Source: Aminivibrio pyruvatiphilus (GTDB taxonomy: Bacteria; Synergistota; Synergistia; Synergistales; Aminobacteriaceae). From it: a stretch of DNA of 64,000 bases. Under the pieces are notes generated by a model. That model saw only the letters and a program-made list of their open reading frames with translations, did not search any database and was not told where the DNA came from. Location of the stretch: assembly GCF_004366815.1 (NCBI RefSeq), contig NZ_SORI01000001.1:62001-126000 (forward strand), read 5' to 3'. Position 1 is the first letter of the stretch. The number at the start of each line of letters is the position of its first letter. The translations under genes and the position numbers were made by a program. This document shows positions 5,463 through 50,763 of the stretch, in pieces.

Positions 5463-8400
5463 ATGGACAGCAAATCCCTTTGGAAAAAAATCTTGTCCTT
5501 CATGAGTTTGCGAAGGTTGCGTTCCACATACATGAGCGGTGCAGAAGATTCTGCAGTGTATAATTCCCGCGGAAAACAGTTTTTCGGACGGGCTCAGGAA
5601 GTCTCCTTCGGAACAGAGCTGTTCAGTGCAGATCAGATGGAGCAGCATGGGAAAATTCTTGCGCGCAGGCATCGTGTGCAGTCCGGACATCCACGGGATT
5701 CTCTTCTGCCTCTGCTGGATGGAAACGAGAAGCTCCTGCGTGAAGCTTACGGCCAGATGGAGGATGACGCCGAGGCCGGGCGCAGGATAGTGCCGGCCGG
5801 AGAATGGCTGCTCGACAACTTTCATTTGATCGAAGAACAGATCAGGACGGCCAGGCGGCATTTGCCGAAGGGATACAGCCGGGAACTGCCGTATTTGACA
5901 GGCGATTCGGCGGAGGAGTTCCCGCGGGTGTACGACATAGCCAGGGAGACGATTTCGCATTGCGACGGGCGGGTGGATCCGGAAAACCTCGTCCGCTTCG
6001 TCAAGTCCTATCTGTCGGTGACGACGCTCAAGCTGGGGGAGCTCTGGGCTATCCCGATCATGCTGAGGCTGGCGCTGATAGAGAACCTCAGGCAGGTTGC
6101 GGATCGGCTGATTGCTGCGCGCGCGTATCGCAACCTTGCGGAATTCTGGGCCGACCGGATGATCCATGTGGCGTCGGAGGATCCAAAGAACCTGATTCTG
6201 CCGATCGCCGATATGGCTCGTTCAAATCCGCCCATGGACGCTTCCTTTGTCGCAGAGCTGACTCGCCGGCTACAGGGACAGGGGACCGCTCTGACTCTGC
6301 CTTTGACGTGGATGGAGCAGCAGCTGTCGGAGAACGGCCTGACGATCGAACAGTGCGTGCGCTCCGAAAATCAGAGGCAGACGGTGGATCAGGCTTCTAT
6401 ACGCAACAGCATAGGCAGCCTCCGTTTTCTGGGGGCGATGGACTGGCGCAAGTTCGTCGAGACGATGAGTATCGTGGAGCAAACCCTGGAAGAGGATCCC
6501 GCCGGGATCTACCGCAGGATGGATTTTACCACCCGCGACCGGTATCGCCATGTTGTGGCGCGGATCGCAAAGAACAGTCCGTGTTCCGAGATTGACGTTG
6601 CCCGCAAGGCGATTCAGCTTGCCCGCGAAGGAGCGGCCGAAAGAGGCGACGGCGACAGAACGGCACACGTGGGATTCTATTTGATCGACGAAGGAACGGC
6701 TCGTCTTGAACGCGAGTCGGGGGGCCGCTTTTCACTTGCGTTCGGAGCGGCCGGACTTTGCCGCCGCTGCCCATTGGCGCTCTATCTCGTGAGTATCCTG
6801 CTGCTGACCGCTGTTCTCTCGGGAGGGCTCGTCGCGAAAACCCTCCTCGACGGGACGGCGACAGGTGCGGCCATTCTGCTTGGACTGCTTTCCTTCCTCT
6901 GCGCCGGTCACCTGTCGATCGCACTTGCGAACTGGCTGGCGACGCTGATGGCTTCGCCGCGCCTGCTGCCGCGCATGGACCTCTCCGGGGGCATACCGGC
7001 GGAGCTGCTGACCCTGGCAGTTACCCCGACCATGTTCAGCAGCGTTTCCGGCGTTGAAGAGCTGGTCGCGGCAATGGAAGTCCGCTTCCTGGCCAATAGG
7101 GACGATCACCTCCTCTTTGGCCTGCTCACTGACTTTCCGGATGCCGCGGAAAAAACGCTGCCGGAAGATGCGTTCCTCCTGAAGACCGCCCGGGAAAGAA
7201 TCGAGGCGCTGAATGAAAAGTACCGGAGGGCGGAGAGAGATATTTTCTTCCTGTTCCATCGCCCCCGCCGCTGGAATCCACAGGAAGGCGTGTGGATGGG
7301 GTACGAGCGAAAAAGAGGCAAGCTCGCCGCTTTGAACGCGTTCCTTCGCGGCGGCGGCGAGGATGCTTTCGCCCTCGTCGTGGGAGAGATATCCGGACTG
7401 TCCGGGGTGAAGTATGTAATCACCCTGGACACAGATACACAGCTGCCCCGCGATTCAGCCCGGCAGTTTGTCGGCGTCATGGCGCATCCGCTCAATCGGG
7501 CGAGGTACGATGAAGAGCGCAGGCGGGTAACGGCCGGGTACGGCATTCTGCAGCCGCGCGTGGCGGTGAGCATTATCGGAACGAACCGGTCGAGGTATGC
7601 GCGCCTGTGGACGAGTGAACTCGGCATCGATCCGTATACAAGGGCCGTCTCCGACGTGTATCAGGACCTTTTCGGCGAAGGTTCCTTCATCGGCAAGGGG
7701 ATCTATGATATCGACGCGTTCGAGCTGGCTTTGAGAGGGCGCTTTCCCGAAAACCGCATTCTCAGCCACGATCTCCTGGAGGGGTGCTACGCCAGGGCCG
7801 GACTGTTGAGCGACGTACAGCTCTACGAAGAGTATCCGTCTCGCTACCAGGCTGATGTGAGCCGGCGTCACCGATGGATTCGCGGTGACTGGCAGATTGC
7901 GCAGTGGTGCTTGCCGCGGGTTCCGGAAGCGGACGGGAGGCTGCGGAAAAATCCGCTCTCCATGCTCTCCCGCTGGAAGATCTTCGACAATCTTCGGCGC
8001 AGCCTGATGGCACCGGCGCTGATGCTCCTGCTGGCGGCGGGCTGGTTTCTTTCTCCCTCGCCTCTATTCTGGACACTTGCGGCGGCGGGTGTCATCCTGA
8101 TCCCTTCTTTCATCTCCTCCGCCCTGAACCTCTTTTCAAAACCGAACGATGTCGCTCCCCGGCAGCACTTTGCCGCTGCTCTGGATTCGGCGGCGAGGGG
8201 CCTGGCCCGGGACGCGTTTACGTTCATCTGCCTGCCCTACGAGGCGTTCTTCAGCATGGACGCGATAATGCTGACGCTTGTCAGGATGGCGGTCACGAAA
8301 AAAACGATGCTCGAATGGAATCCGTCGGGAGGTCCGGAGCGTGCCGGGCACGCGGATCTCAGGGAGGCGTATCGGACTATGTGGAGTGCGCCGGTTACGG

Positions 8401-11400
8401 CCGTGATCGTATGCCTGGCGATCCCGTCGGCCGGGGTGGGGGCACTGTTTTTCGCGGCTGGCCCCGTACTCGCTCTCTGGTGCGTGTCGCCCGCGGTCGC
8501 ATGGTGGACAAGCCGGCCTCTGACTCGACGCCGAATGCTTCCGACGGAGGAGCAGCGGGTGTTTTTGCGCAGAATCGCCAGGAAGACATGGTCATTTTTC
8601 GAGACGTTCATCGGCCGGGAAGACAACTGGCTGCCTCCCGACAACTATCAGGAGCATCCTGTTGAGGTAATCGCACACCGCACGTCGCCCACCAATATGG
8701 GGGTCGCCCTGCTGGCGAATATGTCGGCCTTTGATTTCGGCTATATATCTGCGGGGCGGTTTCTCGAACTGACGGGGCGGACTCTGCGTACCATGGAGGG
8801 GCTGGAACGGTATCGAGGGCACTTTTACAACTGGTACGATACACGCACTCTGAAGCCGCTGACGCCTCTGTATGTTTCGACGGTGGACAGCGGAAACCTC
8901 GCAGGGTACCTGTTGACGCTCCAGAGGGGAGTGCTGGCGCTTGCAGATCACAGCATCTTCGACCCCCGTTTCTTCGAGGGGCTGAACGATACCCTCGGAA
9001 TCATAGCCGGGGCCCAGGCGCTCTTTTCGGGAAGCACCCAGCCTTCATGGCTCTCCCGTCTTCGCATGGACATGGAATCCGCTCTCTCCTCTGGGGCTGC
9101 GGCGCCCGAGGCTCTGCGGCTCGCACTGGAACGGCTGGAAGAATCAGCCTCAGCAGCCGCCGCTGCCGAGTCGAACGATAGGGATGCCGGGAATAATCTG
9201 AAGGGGTGGCTCCAAACCTTTGCAAGGCAATGCAGGGATGGGATTGACGAACTGACGTTTCTCGTTCCCTGGGCGGTGAATTCTTCCTCAGGGTATATCT
9301 TCGAAAACCTTCCCGATCCCGGTTCTTTTCCGACACTGCGTGAACTGGCCTTGCTGGAAAAAAAGATTCTTCCTTCGATCGAACTGCGTCGTGCCGCCTG
9401 CCCGCCTGAGGAGCGGGACGGACTCGATACGCTCGCCGGTCTTCTCGCTGAGTCGGGAAAACGCGCCCGCAAGAGGATTGAGGACACCGAAGAAATCGCG
9501 AATCTGTGCGACGAGCTTGCCCGGATGGAATACGGTTTCCTGTACGATGAAACACGCCATTTGCTGGCTATCGGCTACAATGTCGACGAGCGTCGTCCGG
9601 ACGCAGGCTACTATGACCTTCTTGCTTCCGAGGCGCGGTTCGCCACGTTCGTGGCCATTTCCCAGGGGAGACTGCCGCAGGAGAGCTGGTTCGCCCTGGG
9701 GCGACGGCTTACCGCCGCCGGAGGAATTCCGATGCTTCTCTCCTGGAGCGGGTCCATGTTCGAATACCTGATGCCGCTTCTGGTGATGCCGACCTATGAG
9801 CACACGCTGCTCGACGAGACGTACAATGCGGTTGTGGCCATGCAGATCAAGTACGGGGAGATGCGCACCGTCCCCTGGGGTATTTCGGAATCTGGGTACA
9901 ATGCATTCGATGTTCACCTCAACTATCAGTACAGAGCGTTCGGTGTGCCGGGACTGGGAATACAGCGGGGGCTTGCCGAGGATCTGGTGATCGCGCCCTA
10001 TGCTTCGATGCTGGCGCTCATGGTGGCCCCGGAAGAGGCGTGTTCGAATCTTGAGCGTCTCTCCGCGGAAGGCTTTGAAAGCTGGTTCGGCTTCTACGAA
10101 GCGATCGACTACACTCCGTCGCGCTTACATCGCAACCAGCCGCACGCGACGGTTCGTTCCTTCATGACCCATCATCAGGGAATGGGGCTGCTCTCCCTGG
10201 CGAATCTGCTTCTTGACCGTTCAATACAGCGGCGATTCGAGTCCAGCCCGCTGTTTCAGGCGACGCTCCTGCTGCTCCAGGAACAGATTCCAAAAGCGAC
10301 AGCGTTCTTTGTCGACGCCATTGAACACTTCGAGTCGCGGACTGTTTCGGGGGTTCCCGAGACGTCCATACGCATTTTCCGTACTCCGGATACGCCGAAC
10401 CCGGAAGTGCAGTTGCTGTCGAACGGAAGGTACCATGTGGCGGTAACGGCTTCAGGCGGCGGCTACAGCCGCTGGAAAGAGCTTGCGGTGACCCGCTGGC
10501 GGGAGGATCCAACCCGCGACAACTGGGGCGCTTTCTGTTACATTCGCGACACGGCAAGCGGCGACTTCTGGTCGAATACCTATCAGCCGACACTGAAAAG
10601 CCCCGAGCAGTACGAGGCCATCTTCTCGGAGGGGCGGGCGGAGTTCCGTGTCCGCGATCACGAATACGACATCTATACTGAGATCGCCGTCTCGACCGAG
10701 GATGATATCGAGCTGCGCCGCATCCGCATCACCAACCGCGCGAGGACGCGCCGTGAGGTCGAGGTAACCAGCTATGCGGAGGTCGTTCTGGCTCCGCCTG
10801 CCGCAGACGCTCTTCATCCCGCGTTCAGCAATCTTTTCGTACAGACCGAAATACTCCGCAGAGAACGGGCGATTCTCTGCACCCGCCGTCCGCGGGTCGA
10901 CGGAGAGGATCCTCCCTGGATGCTTCATATGATGACGGTGCGCGGGGCATCGGTGGGAGAAGCCTCCTACGAGACCGACCGGATGAAGTTCATCGGGTAC
11001 GGAAACAGCGTCGAAAATCCGCAGGCGCTGGAACGGAGCGGCGGCGCCGGTCCAGCGCCGCTCTCGGACAGCGAGGGCTCGGTGCTGGATCCCATAGTCT
11101 CCATCCGCTGCCGGATAACGCTGGCCCCCGAGGAATCGGTCACGGTGAATATCGTCTCGGGCATCGGCGAAACCCGAAAACAAGCGATGGATATGATAGG
11201 AAAATATCAGGACAGGCGTCTCGCAGACCGTGTCTTTGATCTTGCATGGACTCACGGACAGGTTCTCCTGCGGCAGATAAATGTGTCGGAGGCCGATGCT
11301 CAGCTCTATTCACGGATTGCCGGTTCGATTCTCTACGCCAATGCTGCGCTTCGGGCCGAACAGAATCTCCTCGTTAAAAACCGCCGTGGGCAATCGGGGC

Positions 11401-14324
11401 TCTGGGGGTACGCGATCTCCGGAGATCTCCCGATTGTGCTTCTGCGAATAACCGATCCGGCCAATATCGACCTGGTGCGTCAGCTTGTGCAGGCACATGC
11501 CTACTGGCGCCTCAAGGGGCTGGCTGTCGACCTCGTGATCTGGAACGAGGACCGGGCAGGCTACCGGCAGCTTCTTCACGACAGCATCGTGGGAATTGTC
11601 TCCTCGGTTGTCGAAGCACGTTTTACCGATCGGCCGGGCGGTATCTTCGTACGGATTGCTGAACAGATCGCGGAAGAGGACCGCATCCTTTTCCAGACGG
11701 TTGCACGGGTCATCGTCTCCGACACCCGGGGAACTCTGGAGGAGCAGACCGGCGGCCGCACCTCCGGGAATGTTTCGGTTCCTCTCTTTGTGCCCGTTCA
11801 CCCCCCTCTTCCCGAACAGCTTCCGTCGGCCCCGTCGCCGCGCAACGATCTCATGTTCTGCAACGGACTCGGCGGGTTCACTCCCGACGGGCGCGAGTAT
11901 GTCATCACGACCGCCCGCGGACTGCGGACACCGGCGCCGTGGGTGAACGTCCTGGCCAATCCGGATTTCGGAAGCGTTGTCACCGAGAACGGTTCGGCCT
12001 ATACGTGGAGCGAGAATGCCCACGAATTCCGCATTACTCCGTGGGGGAACGATCCTGTGAGCGCTTCGGGCGGCGAGGCGTTCTATCTTCGCGACGAGGA
12101 GCGCGGACACTACTGGTCGCCCGCTCCGTTCCCGTGCCGGGGAGCGACTCCGTACGTCGCCAGGCACGGGTTCGGCTACACCGTCTTCGAGCACACAGAG
12201 CGCGATATCCGTTCCGAATTGTGGATGTATGTGGCCCTGGACGCTCCGGTGAAATTCTTTGTGCTCAGGGTGCACAATCTCTCGGAACGTTCCCGCCGTC
12301 TTTCCGCCACAGGGTTTATCGAGTGGGTGCTCGGCGACCTGCGCCCGAAATCGAGTATGCACGTAATAACGGAGGTCGAGCCGAACAGCGGTGCGCTCTT
12401 CGCGCGCAATCCGTACAACACTGAGTTTCCCGGCCGAACTGCTTTCTTCGACGTGGACGAGCCGATGCGCAGCGTCTGCGGAAACCGGACGGAGTTCCTG
12501 GGACGGAACGGGACGGCGGGCGCACCCGCCGCAATGAAGCGCGCCGGTCTCTCAGGCAGAACCGGGGCGGCTCTTGACCCCTGCGCCGCGATTCAGGTCC
12601 GGTTCGATCTGGCCGCCGGGCAGGAGCACGAAATAGTCTTTCGGCTTGGCGCGTGCAAAGATGCGGACGAGGCGGCCAGACTCGTCGCCCTCTTCAAGGG
12701 ACCATCCGCTGCCCGCGAGGCTCTTGACGCCGTCTGGCAGCACTGGACGCACACCCTTGGCGCGATTAATGCGGAAACGCCCGACCGTTCTCTGGACGTT
12801 CTGGTCAATGGCTGGCTTCTGTACCAGACTCTGGCGTGCCGCATGTGGGCGCGAAGCGCGACATACCAGTCGGGAGGGGCGTTTGGCTTTCGTGATCAAC
12901 TGCAGGATTCCATGGCGCTTGTTCACGCGAAACCCGGTCTTGTTCGGGATCATCTGCTCCTGTGCGCATCCCGCCAGTTTCCCGAAGGGGATGTGCAGCA
13001 CTGGTGGCATCCGCCGACGGGGCGGGGGGTGCGGACGCGCTGTTCCGACGACTACCTCTGGCTGCCTCTCGCGGCGTCCCGCTACGTCGTCGTGACCGGG
13101 GATTTCGGAGTCCTGGACGAAGCCGTTCGGTTTCTTCAGGGCCGTCCCCTCAACAAGGAGGAGGAGTCCTATTACGACCTGCCGGGTTATTCTGAAGAGA
13201 CTGCGAGCCTGTACCGGCACTGTGTTCTGGCCATAGAGAAAGGACTTTCGTTCGGCGAGCGGGGACTGCCGCTCATGGGCTCCGGCGACTGGAACGACGG
13301 TATGGACAAGGTCGGGCTTCAGGGGATGGGGGAGAGCGTGTGGCTGGGTTTTTTCCTCTACGAAGTGCTTTCGCGTTTCGCAGGAGTCGCCCGCGCTTAT
13401 GGCGATGCATTGTTCGCCGAACGGTGCGAACAGGAGGCTTTTGTGCTGTGTCTCAATATTGAGAAAAGCGGATGGGACGGAGAATGGTATCGGCGTGCCT
13501 ACTTCGACGACGGCTCTCCTCTCGGTTCGGCGGAGAACAGCGAGTGCCGTATTGACTCAATCTCCCAGAGCTGGTCGGTTTTGTCCGGCGCAGGGGACCA
13601 TGACCGCACCGTTCAGGCGATGGAGTCGGTGGATACGCATCTGGTCAGCAGGGAAGACCGTCTTGTCAAACTGCTTGACCCGCCCTTCGATAGGTCAGAG
13701 CCGAATCCCGGGTATATCAGGGGGTACGTCCCCGGCGTACGGGAGAACGGCGGTCAGTACACCCATGCCGCCGTCTGGGCCTCCATGGCTTTTGCCCGGC
13801 TGGGGGATGCGCCCCGCGCGTGGGAAGTTTTTTCGATGATCAATCCGGTGAACCACGGGCGGACCCCTGAAGAGGTCGATATCTACAAAGTGGAACCGTA
13901 TGTCGTCGCGGCTGATGTGTACGTAGCTCCGCAGCATTTGGGCCGCGGCGGATGGACATGGTACACGGGATCGGCGGCATGGATGTACCGCCTGATCGTC
14001 GAGTCGCTTCTCGGACTCGTGGTCGAAGCGAATACGCTGCGTTTCATTCCGTGTCTTCCTCCCGAGTGGGAGGGGTGCACGATACACTACCGGTACATGG
14101 ATACGGTCTATAACATCAGGATGCTGCAAAACGCCGGCGCGCCACAGGGGACCGCTTCTTCTCCCTTAGGGACACCCCCCCCTGAAACCATGGGGATGAC
14201 GGTCGATGGCGCCGAACAGAGCGGCGGTATCGTGCCGCTCGTGAACGACCTGCGCGAACATGAGGTGGAAGTACGGTTTTCGGTTGCGCGCGGTTCGAAT
14301 GCCGCCGGGAGGGAGATTCAATAG
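5463..14324 (+). CDS. ndvB: Cyclic beta-1,2-glucan synthase-like protein (GT84 - glycoamylase-like - GH94)
   Basis: A single 2,953-residue protein, matching the usual 2,800-2,900 residues of NdvB/ChvB/Cgs. Visible parts in order: N-terminal region; membrane helices near 437-492; the glycosyltransferase 84 core with the TLDTDTQLPRDSA metal site (about 655-667) and RRHRWIRGDWQ (about 801-812, a Q/R-x-x-R-W-like acceptor motif); more helices near 850-885 and 970-1020; a glycoamylase-like domain (about 1070-1560, with SPTNMGVALLAN and FMTHHQGMGLLSL); beta-sandwich and GH94 phosphorylase-like domains (about 1650-2900) with GDWNDGMD near 2608-2615 carrying the catalytic Asp of GH94. The family initiates, elongates and cyclises beta-1,2-glucan for export to the periplasm. 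The gene stands alone with its own promoter. Codon use is richer in CGC/CGT and TCG than nearby genes, hinting at transfer. Whether the product is cyclic here is unproven. Confidence 0.9.
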   Translation: MDSKSLWKKILSFMSLRRLRSTYMSGAEDSAVYNSRGKQFFGRAQEVSFGTELFSADQMEQHGKILARRHRVQSGHPRDSLLPLLDGNEKLLREAYGQMEDDAEAGRRIVPAGEWLLDNFHLIEEQIRTARRHLPKGYSRELPYLTGDSAEEFPRVYDIARETISHCDGRVDPENLVRFVKSYLSVTTLKLGELWAIPIMLRLALIENLRQVADRLIAARAYRNLAEFWADRMIHVASEDPKNLILPIADMARSNPPMDASFVAELTRRLQGQGTALTLPLTWMEQQLSENGLTIEQCVRSENQRQTVDQASIRNSIGSLRFLGAMDWRKFVETMSIVEQTLEEDPAGIYRRMDFTTRDRYRHVVARIAKNSPCSEIDVARKAIQLAREGAAERGDGDRTAHVGFYLIDEGTARLERESGGRFSLAFGAAGLCRRCPLALYLVSILLLTAVLSGGLVAKTLLDGTATGAAILLGLLSFLCAGHLSIALANWLATLMASPRLLPRMDLSGGIPAELLTLAVTPTMFSSVSGVEELVAAMEVRFLANRDDHLLFGLLTDFPDAAEKTLPEDAFLLKTARERIEALNEKYRRAERDIFFLFHRPRRWNPQEGVWMGYERKRGKLAALNAFLRGGGEDAFALVVGEISGLSGVKYVITLDTDTQLPRDSARQFVGVMAHPLNRARYDEERRRVTAGYGILQPRVAVSIIGTNRSRYARLWTSELGIDPYTRAVSDVYQDLFGEGSFIGKGIYDIDAFELALRGRFPENRILSHDLLEGCYARAGLLSDVQLYEEYPSRYQADVSRRHRWIRGDWQIAQWCLPRVPEADGRLRKNPLSMLSRWKIFDNLRRSLMAPALMLLLAAGWFLSPSPLFWTLAAAGVILIPSFISSALNLFSKPNDVAPRQHFAAALDSAARGLARDAFTFICLPYEAFFSMDAIMLTLVRMAVTKKTMLEWNPSGGPERAGHADLREAYRTMWSAPVTAVIVCLAIPSAGVGALFFAAGPVLALWCVSPAVAWWTSRPLTRRRMLPTEEQRVFLRRIARKTWSFFETFIGREDNWLPPDNYQEHPVEVIAHRTSPTNMGVALLANMSAFDFGYISAGRFLELTGRTLRTMEGLERYRGHFYNWYDTRTLKPLTPLYVSTVDSGNLAGYLLTLQRGVLALADHSIFDPRFFEGLNDTLGIIAGAQALFSGSTQPSWLSRLRMDMESALSSGAAAPEALRLALERLEESASAAAAAESNDRDAGNNLKGWLQTFARQCRDGIDELTFLVPWAVNSSSGYIFENLPDPGSFPTLRELALLEKKILPSIELRRAACPPEERDGLDTLAGLLAESGKRARKRIEDTEEIANLCDELARMEYGFLYDETRHLLAIGYNVDERRPDAGYYDLLASEARFATFVAISQGRLPQESWFALGRRLTAAGGIPMLLSWSGSMFEYLMPLLVMPTYEHTLLDETYNAVVAMQIKYGEMRTVPWGISESGYNAFDVHLNYQYRAFGVPGLGIQRGLAEDLVIAPYASMLALMVAPEEACSNLERLSAEGFESWFGFYEAIDYTPSRLHRNQPHATVRSFMTHHQGMGLLSLANLLLDRSIQRRFESSPLFQATLLLLQEQIPKATAFFVDAIEHFESRTVSGVPETSIRIFRTPDTPNPEVQLLSNGRYHVAVTASGGGYSRWKELAVTRWREDPTRDNWGAFCYIRDTASGDFWSNTYQPTLKSPEQYEAIFSEGRAEFRVRDHEYDIYTEIAVSTEDDIELRRIRITNRARTRREVEVTSYAEVVLAPPAADALHPAFSNLFVQTEILRRERAILCTRRPRVDGEDPPWMLHMMTVRGASVGEASYETDRMKFIGYGNSVENPQALERSGGAGPAPLSDSEGSVLDPIVSIRCRITLAPEESVTVNIVSGIGETRKQAMDMIGKYQDRRLADRVFDLAWTHGQVLLRQINVSEADAQLYSRIAGSILYANAALRAEQNLLVKNRRGQSGLWGYAISGDLPIVLLRITDPANIDLVRQLVQAHAYWRLKGLAVDLVIWNEDRAGYRQLLHDSIVGIVSSVVEARFTDRPGGIFVRIAEQIAEEDRILFQTVARVIVSDTRGTLEEQTGGRTSGNVSVPLFVPVHPPLPEQLPSAPSPRNDLMFCNGLGGFTPDGREYVITTARGLRTPAPWVNVLANPDFGSVVTENGSAYTWSENAHEFRITPWGNDPVSASGGEAFYLRDEERGHYWSPAPFPCRGATPYVARHGFGYTVFEHTERDIRSELWMYVALDAPVKFFVLRVHNLSERSRRLSATGFIEWVLGDLRPKSSMHVITEVEPNSGALFARNPYNTEFPGRTAFFDVDEPMRSVCGNRTEFLGRNGTAGAPAAMKRAGLSGRTGAALDPCAAIQVRFDLAAGQEHEIVFRLGACKDADEAARLVALFKGPSAAREALDAVWQHWTHTLGAINAETPDRSLDVLVNGWLLYQTLACRMWARSATYQSGGAFGFRDQLQDSMALVHAKPGLVRDHLLLCASRQFPEGDVQHWWHPPTGRGVRTRCSDDYLWLPLAASRYVVVTGDFGVLDEAVRFLQGRPLNKEEESYYDLPGYSEETASLYRHCVLAIEKGLSFGERGLPLMGSGDWNDGMDKVGLQGMGESVWLGFFLYEVLSRFAGVARAYGDALFAERCEQEAFVLCLNIEKSGWDGEWYRRAYFDDGSPLGSAENSECRIDSISQSWSVLSGAGDHDRTVQAMESVDTHLVSREDRLVKLLDPPFDRSEPNPGYIRGYVPGVRENGGQYTHAAVWASMAFARLGDAPRAWEVFSMINPVNHGRTPEEVDIYKVEPYVVAADVYVAPQHLGRGGWTWYTGSAAWMYRLIVESLLGLVVEANTLRFIPCLPPEWEGCTIHYRYMDTVYNIRMLQNAGAPQGTASSPLGTPPPETMGMTVDGAEQSGGIVPLVNDLREHEVEVRFSVARGSNAAGREIQ

Positions 14325-28006: not shown

Positions 28007-28102
28007 TGAAAAGGTCACCTCGTTCACTCAAAGTTGGTCTGCCGAAAATGCAAAATACACACTATCATCCTTTCGGATGGAAATCAAGAACGTATAACGG
28101 GC

Positions 28103-28356
28103 CCTAAATCCGCAGCTTTTCCTGGCAGAGGGAGTGTCGCCGGGCATAAGGTGAATTCGCCCCCCAGGGGCGAAGAGATGATCCCCTGGGGGACAGCGCC
28201 CGGGCCGAGAAACCGACATGGATGTCGGTTTCACAGGCAGGCAACCGGCGAACGCAGGGAGCCGAGTTGATCGCCTGGGCAGTTGTCAAGGATGACAATC
28301 TGCACCGACGGCCCAAGCGAGCACCGGTGACGCTCCCCGCTGCCTGCGGATTTAGG
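28103..28356 (+). repeat. Structured repeat element, copy 1 (254 bp, 13-bp terminal inverted repeats)
   Basis: The ends CCTAAATCCGCAG (28103-28115) and CTGCGGATTTAGG (28344-28356) are perfect inverted repeats. Inside are several hairpins: cctggca/cgccggg, TTCGCCCC/GGGGCGAA, one at 28209-28232 with a TGGA loop, and one at 28279-28303 with an AGGA loop. A second copy lies at 50516-50727, nearly identical apart from about 42 extra bases here. It has no coding potential I would trust. It could be a MITE-like mobile repeat, a structured RNA, or both. It fills most of the 28028-28465 gap. Confidence 0.85.
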
Positions 28357-28465
28357 ACGGGGGCTTTCCGGTCGAGCTTTCCGGTCGATTGAAGGAAAAC
28401 AGGGCGGAGCTGCCCATCCGGGACCATTTCTTCCAGTTTCTTCAAATAAGTATTCCCGGGGGGTA

Positions 28466-28494
28466 TTGACAAAACATTTCACTTTTATGAAAAT
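28466..28494 (+). promoter_or_regulatory. Candidate promoter for the second TRAP operon
   Basis: A perfect TTGACA (28466-28471) with GAAAAT 17 bases on, in AT-rich DNA about 135 bases before the dctP start. Confidence 0.5.
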
Positions 28495-50474: not shown

Positions 50475-50503
50475 AACGCCTCTTTTCCCTTCGCTGAAAA
50501 CCG

Positions 50504-50740
50504 AGCCCCCTTTCGCCTAAATCCGCAGCTCTTCCCGGCAGAGGGAGTGTTGCCGGGCATAAGGTGAATTCGCCCCGCCAGGGGCGAAGAGATGACCCCC
50601 TGGGGGGCAGCGCCCGGGCCGAGAAACCGACAAGGATGTCGGTTTCAGGTGCAGTTGTCAAGGACGACAATCTGCACCGGCGGCCCAAGCGAGCACCGGT
50701 GACGCTCCCCGCTGCCTGCGGATTTGGATTTCGGGGGCTT
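50504..50740 (+). terminator. Possible pyr terminator split by the repeat element
   Basis: The sequence agccccc lies just before repeat copy 2 and gggggcttttttt just after it. Without the repeat the two would form a short GC stem followed by T7. The repeat may have inserted in the loop of the pyrE terminator, or its own closing stem extends into these arms. The outer stem plus T-run could still terminate. Confidence 0.45.
50516..50727 (+). repeat. Structured repeat element, copy 2 (212 bp)
   Basis: Starts CCTAAATCCGCAG and ends CTGCGGATTTGG. Hairpins are all conserved: cccggca/tgccggg (perfect here, mismatched in copy 1), TTCGCCCC/GGGGCGAA, 50623-50646 with AGGA loop, 50649-50677 with AAGGAC loop. 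It lacks about 42 bases present in copy 1 between the last two hairpins. Located between pyrE and a hypothetical gene; same orientation as copy 1. Confidence 0.87.
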
Positions 50741-50763
50741 TTTTTCTTTCCTTCCCTCTGCGG

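Follow-up and report, generated by a model that had tools for sequence, protein, structure and literature searches.

We describe a repetitive element in the genome of Aminivibrio pyruvatiphilus and its relatives that is a mobile and modular MITE of the IS1380 type, with an interior that has a conserved RNA fold, strand-specific loops of the CsrA type and a relation to the TwoAYGGAY RNA. We consider it probable that the repeat is a non-autonomous element whose payload is a TwoAYGGAY-class RNA that would be transcribed and bound by CsrA. An earlier sequence-only reading had proposed either a MITE or a mobile structured RNA; both proposals are supported and refer to the same object, the former by terminal inverted repeats (TIRs), 5-bp target-site duplications (TSDs) and a partner insertion sequence (IS), and the latter by a fold with compensatory changes.

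The element in the window and its ends

The window, i.e., the complete stretch of 64,000 nucleotides that was analysed, contains two copies of one and the same element, both with the GGA-bearing strand on the + strand: copy 1 at 28103-28356, a long form with the two optional modules A and B, and copy 2 at 50516-50728, with module A only. Both copies end in TIRs of 13 bp, in keeping with the 12-13 bp claimed at first sight, which follow the pattern CCTAAATCCGCAG...CTGCGGATTT(A/G)G(G/A) and are located at 28103-28115 (CCTAAATCCGCAG) and 28344-28356 (CTGCGGATTTAGG) in copy 1 and at 50516-50528 and 50716-50728 in copy 2. The right end of copy 2 reads CTGCGGATTTGGA, which puts its true end at 50728 and not at 50727 as originally proposed; the proposed start at 50516 stands. 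The description of the two copies as nearly identical applies to the shared blocks (94.7-97.3% identity) but not to the copies as wholes, copy 1 having an extra 46-bp module at 28234-28279 that is not in copy 2, and the fragment reported as a third piece was not found in the window, where the next best match, of 18 bases, is due to chance. A separate observation in the same window is a single open frame of 2953 codons (5463-14324, +), which predicts an unusually large protein.

Copy 2 is flanked on both sides by the TSD TTTCG (50511-50515 and 50729-50733) and copy 1 by ACGGG (28097-28101 and 28357-28361, read from the sequence), with one extra C at 28102. Exact 5-bp TSDs are present at 38 of the ~47 intact copies of the window's family, and TSD lengths of 6-10 bp occur at none of these ~47. 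The ends of an IS, CCTAAATCCGCA.../...TGCGGATTTAGG, which match the termini of the element, are found at many contig breaks of the host genome (G000), and G002, a genome of the same genus, has a complete IS (locus L115, 372-2283) that shares these ends and is flanked by the TSD CGGTC. This IS codes for a 533-aa transposase that matches the NCBIfam model transpos_IS1380 with E 3.6e-51 and 174.1 bits, just under the curated cutoff of 180, and Pfam PF13701 (DDE_Tnp_1_4) with 67.8 bits, above the cutoff of 34.7. A PF13701 profile search of G000 gave no match because only the IS ends are assembled there, at contig breaks. The IS sequence is also found in G003 and G004, which are without the small element.

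Since a same-ended IS1380-like IS occurs in the genus, the element is identified by its TIRs, its 5-bp TSDs and this partner IS as a non-autonomous IS1380-type MITE. Judging from the ends and duplications, an IS1380-like transposase would bind the shared ends CCTAAATCCGCAG/CTGCGGATTTAGG and insert the element with a 5-bp target duplication. The possibility that the interior is a shortened form of the IS was rejected, as matches to the IS body apart from the ends are at chance level, and a comparison of the element DNA with plasmid and phage collections gave no match. We also observe that in the leader of the IS1380-like transposase gene (L115, 372-490) the ribosome-binding region is covered by a long stem and there is a CUGUUC-GGA-GAACAG hairpin, a possible CsrA site or anti-read-through device.

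Modular organization

The common short form of the element is 165 bp long, with a core of 132 nt. Module A is a 49-bp segment whose hairpins are inserted near the top of the outer rod in both window copies (28146-28194 in copy 1 and 50559-50608 in copy 2); it is missing from the short-form copies, and at one place in G000 (L011, 1502-1948, corresponding to about 179372-179817 of contig C1) it forms ~7 near-identical tandem units. The multiplication of module A at L011 resembles that of boxB in BOX repeats. Module B, ~45 bp long and matched over 46 bp in copy 1, takes the place of GGTG at the base of hairpin 4. The differences between orthologous copies involve whole modules: one orthologous site is occupied by the short form in G000 (L018) and by the long form in G001 (L101), and the diagnostic bases are otherwise common to both. 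Modules would thus come and go by slippage and gene conversion between copies, as the orthologues suggest, and such gain or loss would leave both CsrA-type hairpins intact.

RNA fold and CsrA-type loops

Copies 1 and 2 fold much better than their dinucleotide shuffles (z = -9.5 and -7.9), and the fold of the aligned short copies consists of an outer rod, an inner stem and a pair of terminal hairpins. The rod of copy 1 is formed by 28124-28143 (5' strand) and 28324-28344 (3' strand), and its terminal hairpins, both with ANGGAX hexaloops, are hairpin 3 at 28209-28232 (GAAACCGAC-ATGGAT-GTCGGTTTC) and hairpin 4 at 28280-28306 (CAGTTGTC-AAGGAT-GACAATCTGCACC); the corresponding hairpins of copy 2 are found at 50623-50646 (GAAACCGAC-AAGGAT-GTCGGTTTC) and 50648-50678 (GGTGCAGTTGTC-AAGGAC-GACAATCTGCACC), all on the + strand. 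A covariation test of the aligned short copies, a check suggested by the sequence-only reading, gave double-sided changes at 6 pairs and a score that is reached by no shuffle. The payload is an RNA-like fold with compensatory changes.

In this family, and in the second family described below, most of the hairpins have an ANGGAX or AGGAX loop that is closed by a C-G pair. Among 50 distinct members of the window's family the consensus [AU]CANGGANG[UA] has 94 matches on the + strand and 0 on the - strand, against an expectation of 0.64, and two A(N)GGA apical loops are present in 48 of the 50 elements compared to 0 of 50 on the opposite strand. The - strand serves as a natural control because the stems are near-palindromic, such that it has a similar fold from which the loops are missing. 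The base that precedes GGA can be any base, not only Y. Among 35 short copies, variability is 0.5% in the six GGA columns and reaches 60, 43 and 31% in the N and X columns, the highest values of the whole element, the exception being the X of hairpin 3, which is almost always U. The claim that loops vary while stems stay calls for a correction, as in the two terminal hairpins GGA is kept and only N and X vary. An ANGGAX loop placed directly on a stem is a high-affinity CsrA/RsmE site in which N and X are looped out (PMC4005645), and an invariant GGA combined with variable N and X is the pattern expected for CsrA/RsmE recognition.

The mechanism that we propose begins with + strand RNA, which would be supplied by the transcript of a neighbouring gene and would fold as a rod with two ANGGAX hairpins. 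The two hexaloops, ~28 nt apart, match high-affinity sites for the CsrA homodimer. Each transcribed copy would then capture CsrA and act as a decoy that lowers the amount of free CsrA or, alternatively, would provide a docking site through which CsrA controls the linked mRNA.

Relation to the TwoAYGGAY RNA

The layout of TwoAYGGAY (Rfam RF01731, clan CL00106), namely two hairpins with AYGGAY-type loops on a common outer stem, is found in the element. Five copies of the window's family score at or above the Rfam threshold of 43 bits (L022 with 45.2, L090 with 45.0, L016 with 43.5, L030 with 43.4 and L019 with 43.1), and L027, L018, L012 and L013 score just below it. The core of copy 2 (50623-50680, which includes hairpin 3) reaches 40.9 bits, copy 1 has no hit to the model, and a scan of the whole window with Rfam at gathering thresholds found nothing; the similarity is seen only in E-value searches of small stretches and of module-free copies. 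The window copies probably miss the threshold because the inserted modules break the model. The initial impression that the repeat is not a described family is accordingly correct for the mobile element, of which we found no description, and incorrect for the RNA core, several copies of which reach the RF01731 threshold. TwoAYGGAY was predicted to be a CsrA-binding RNA by motif matching (Gardner and Eldai, PMC4333381), and was originally identified by Weinberg et al. 2010 in data from the human gut, gamma-Proteobacteria and Clostridiales (PMC2864571).

A lone TwoAYGGAY with 64.9 bits and without recognizable transposon ends is located in G169 (L199, 1493-1635, -). It adjoins a strong hairpin and is a candidate for a non-mobile ancestor. 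Another locus (L112, 1282-1391 and 1453-1581, both -) has a TwoAYGGAY-like element that is followed, 62 nt downstream and on the same strand, by a TPP riboswitch (72.6 bits), so that the two are probably part of one leader.

Distribution and history of the copies

Further copies, which the sequence-only reading had suggested looking for in this genome and its relatives, were found in three genomes of the same Synergistaceae genus (G000, G001 and G002), each of which has dozens, from ~20 to 90 per genome. A search of all of G000 (3.35 Mb, 62 contigs) gave 69 BLAST pieces in ~30 places. A strict 16-base hairpin pattern has 21 matches in G000, 18 in G001 and 91 in G002, and 0 in G003 and G004 of the same genus. 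The 91 matches in G002 and 40 in G163, compared to only ~20 each in G000 and G001, reflect a recent burst of copies. The named public records that bear the element sequence are Synergistaceae MAGs. Outside the genus, a covariance-model search of 188 Synergistota genomes detected a single copy in G074 and two copies, both diverged, in G167, which belongs to another Synergistota family (f4). A single hairpin match in G143 was set aside as a probable chance match, the surrounding fold being missing.

The two window copies differ in age. The site of copy 1 is empty in G001, G002 and G003, which suggests that copy 1 was inserted recently. At the site of copy 2, G001 has a shorter element of an older type, the ends of which are decayed, and G002 has a remnant, from which it follows that this insertion is old; in one lineage its interior would have been exchanged, for which gene conversion is the simplest explanation. 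The G001 orthologue of copy 2, with its old-type core and decayed TIRs, also speaks against a separate lineage of copies without recognizable TIRs, which are better regarded as old copies.

A second family with the same interior layout

Follow-up of the copies outside the genus brought to light a second family, likewise in many copies, in ten f4 genomes. Its ends, TATGACTATCA...TGATAGTCATA, are unlike those of the window's family, exact duplications of 8 bp are found in 12 of 37 cases, and there is little similarity in primary sequence between the two families; the interior layout is the same. Double-sided changes occur at 24 of 49 pairs, above all 500 shuffles. A loose form of the loop motif has 102 matches on one strand and 0 on the other in 62 elements, and one GGA is lost in some of the copies (ACACGATGT).

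One member of the second family (L255, G155:C37:3000-5200) is located at the exact 3' end of csrA (1027-1284, -) in sense orientation, such that the left end of the element contains the csrA stop codon. A fliW-like gene adjoins this csrA/element pair, and the arrangement is a possible feedback circuit.

Transcription context and host csrA

Where the flanking genes are co-directional, the GGA strand coincides with the sense strand at 19 of 26 sites of the window's family and at 20 of 25 sites of the second family; the combined count of 39 of 51 (39:12) has p = 2e-4, with the qualification that the genes were called crudely by a simple ORF method and that a few sites may share descent. Copy 2 splits the loop of a hairpin resembling an intrinsic terminator, GAGCCCCC-TTTCG-GGGGCT-T7 (50503-50745), such that the loop is at the same time the TSD and the terminator stem encloses the whole element. 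The split hairpin is downstream of a gene for a phosphoribosyltransferase-domain protein, and for that reason copy 2 would be part of the 3' UTR of this gene. As a general rule, insertion into terminator loops was discarded, as it holds for only ~2 of 45 sites. Copy 1 is located between the divergent M20-peptidase and dctP genes, and because it is upstream of a promoter-like site at 28466 it may be outside the dctP leader, which makes its transcription uncertain.

The host genome has a single csrA of 85 aa beside a fliW-like gene; its product matches RsmE and CsrA structures, and from their positions we take Leu4 and Arg44 to be its RNA-binding residues. The gene (PF02599) is present in G000, G001, G002 and G167, and also in G074 and most f4 carriers. 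It was not found in G003 and G004, both without the element, nor in G156 and G165, both of which are incomplete genomes. Across the phylum, csrA is found in 12 of 14 element-bearing genomes and in 107 of 174 others, a difference that is not significant (p = 0.06), and its co-occurrence with the element is only suggestive.

Alternative explanations and implications

The element could be a plain MITE in which the hairpins are by-products of palindromic ends and the loops are conserved merely as a result of recent copying. Copies within the genus are indeed ~95% identical and G002 with its 91 hairpin matches has undergone a recent burst; however, the most variable positions of the element share their loops with the invariant GGA, ANGGA-type loops are retained in the diverged second family, the stems of which covary, and five copies from the window's family have TwoAYGGAY scores at or above the threshold, all of which makes this explanation unlikely. 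We give somewhat less credence still to a structural cis-regulator comparable to BOX, i.e., a leader, terminator or mRNA stabiliser in which CsrA is not involved. The modular design, in which the middle module can be repeated as it is in the pneumococcal BOX, the bias of insertions to sense orientation and 5' regions, and the position of copy 2 in a terminator-like loop are in agreement with such a role, which nevertheless leaves the strand-specific invariant GGA with free N and X unexplained. The strong near-palindromic folds could also mean that the hairpins work as single-stranded DNA in transposition or recombination, similar to IS200/IS605 or attC, but the 5-bp TSDs, the matched TIRs and the same-ended DDE transposase fit ordinary DDE transposition, and the second family has different ends and 8-bp TSDs yet the same interior layout; we regard this role as highly improbable.

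If the reading as a MITE with a CsrA-binding RNA payload is true, a mobile RNA that occurs in many copies, each with two ideal CsrA sites, would represent a new route by which transposable elements act on a global regulator. CsrA sponge RNAs are usually viewed as tightly regulated host genes and have so far been identified in Gammaproteobacteria. The element may distribute decoys for CsrA, or switches controlled by it, over the chromosome, it would give the orphan TwoAYGGAY RNA a context, and the genomes with 0 to ~90 copies form a natural series for testing the idea. A broader proposal, which we put forward tentatively and rate at slightly under an even chance, is that CsrA-binding RNA is a transposable payload of at least two Synergistota MITE families with different ends and TSDs of 5 and 8 bp, whose copy number and insertion sites, as those of selfish elements, would set the CsrA decoy pool and change the wiring of the Csr regulon; one genome even has such an insertion at the 3' end of csrA.

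Comparison with known systems

MITEs and Csr-type RNAs are both of known kinds, and their combination is new as far as we have searched: no paper that links TwoAYGGAY or CsrA with MITEs was found in the open-access literature, and the Rfam 12 paper treats CsrA and miniature inverted-repeat elements separately. The element resembles MITEs and the IS1380 family in that it is short, has no ORF, and has a 5-bp TSD and the 13-bp TIRs of the resident IS1380-like element; it differs in that its interior is not a deletion product of the IS and has a conserved RNA fold with strand-specific loops. The BOX elements of Streptococcus pneumoniae are likewise modular and MITE-like, bounded by TIRs and TSDs and containing internal modules in varying number (PMC3049150), but their sequence and ends are different and the accessible part of that description mentions no CsrA-type loops, so the likeness is one of layout only. 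Mobile DNA that affects post-transcriptional regulation of the host is also exemplified by the IS200 5'tnpA small RNA and by plasmid RsmQ (PMC12594629, PMC9928087); the former derives from the transposase transcript and the latter is a CsrA-like protein, and neither is a transposable RNA with CsrA sites.

The element shares with TwoAYGGAY the two adjacent A(N)GGA-loop hairpins atop a longer stem, and several of its copies pass the cutoff. The difference is that the RNA is found here between transposon ends, in dozens of copies and with extra modules, the window copies being below the cutoff, whereas the accessible part of the literature on RF01731 includes no report of mobility. With CsrB, CsrC, RsmX, RsmY and RsmZ it has in common hairpins with ANGGA or AGGA loops that would titrate the CsrA dimer. 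Those RNAs are single-locus regulated genes known from Gammaproteobacteria (PMC4333381); in contrast, the present element has just two sites per copy, many dispersed mobile copies, and hosts with fliW and csrA.
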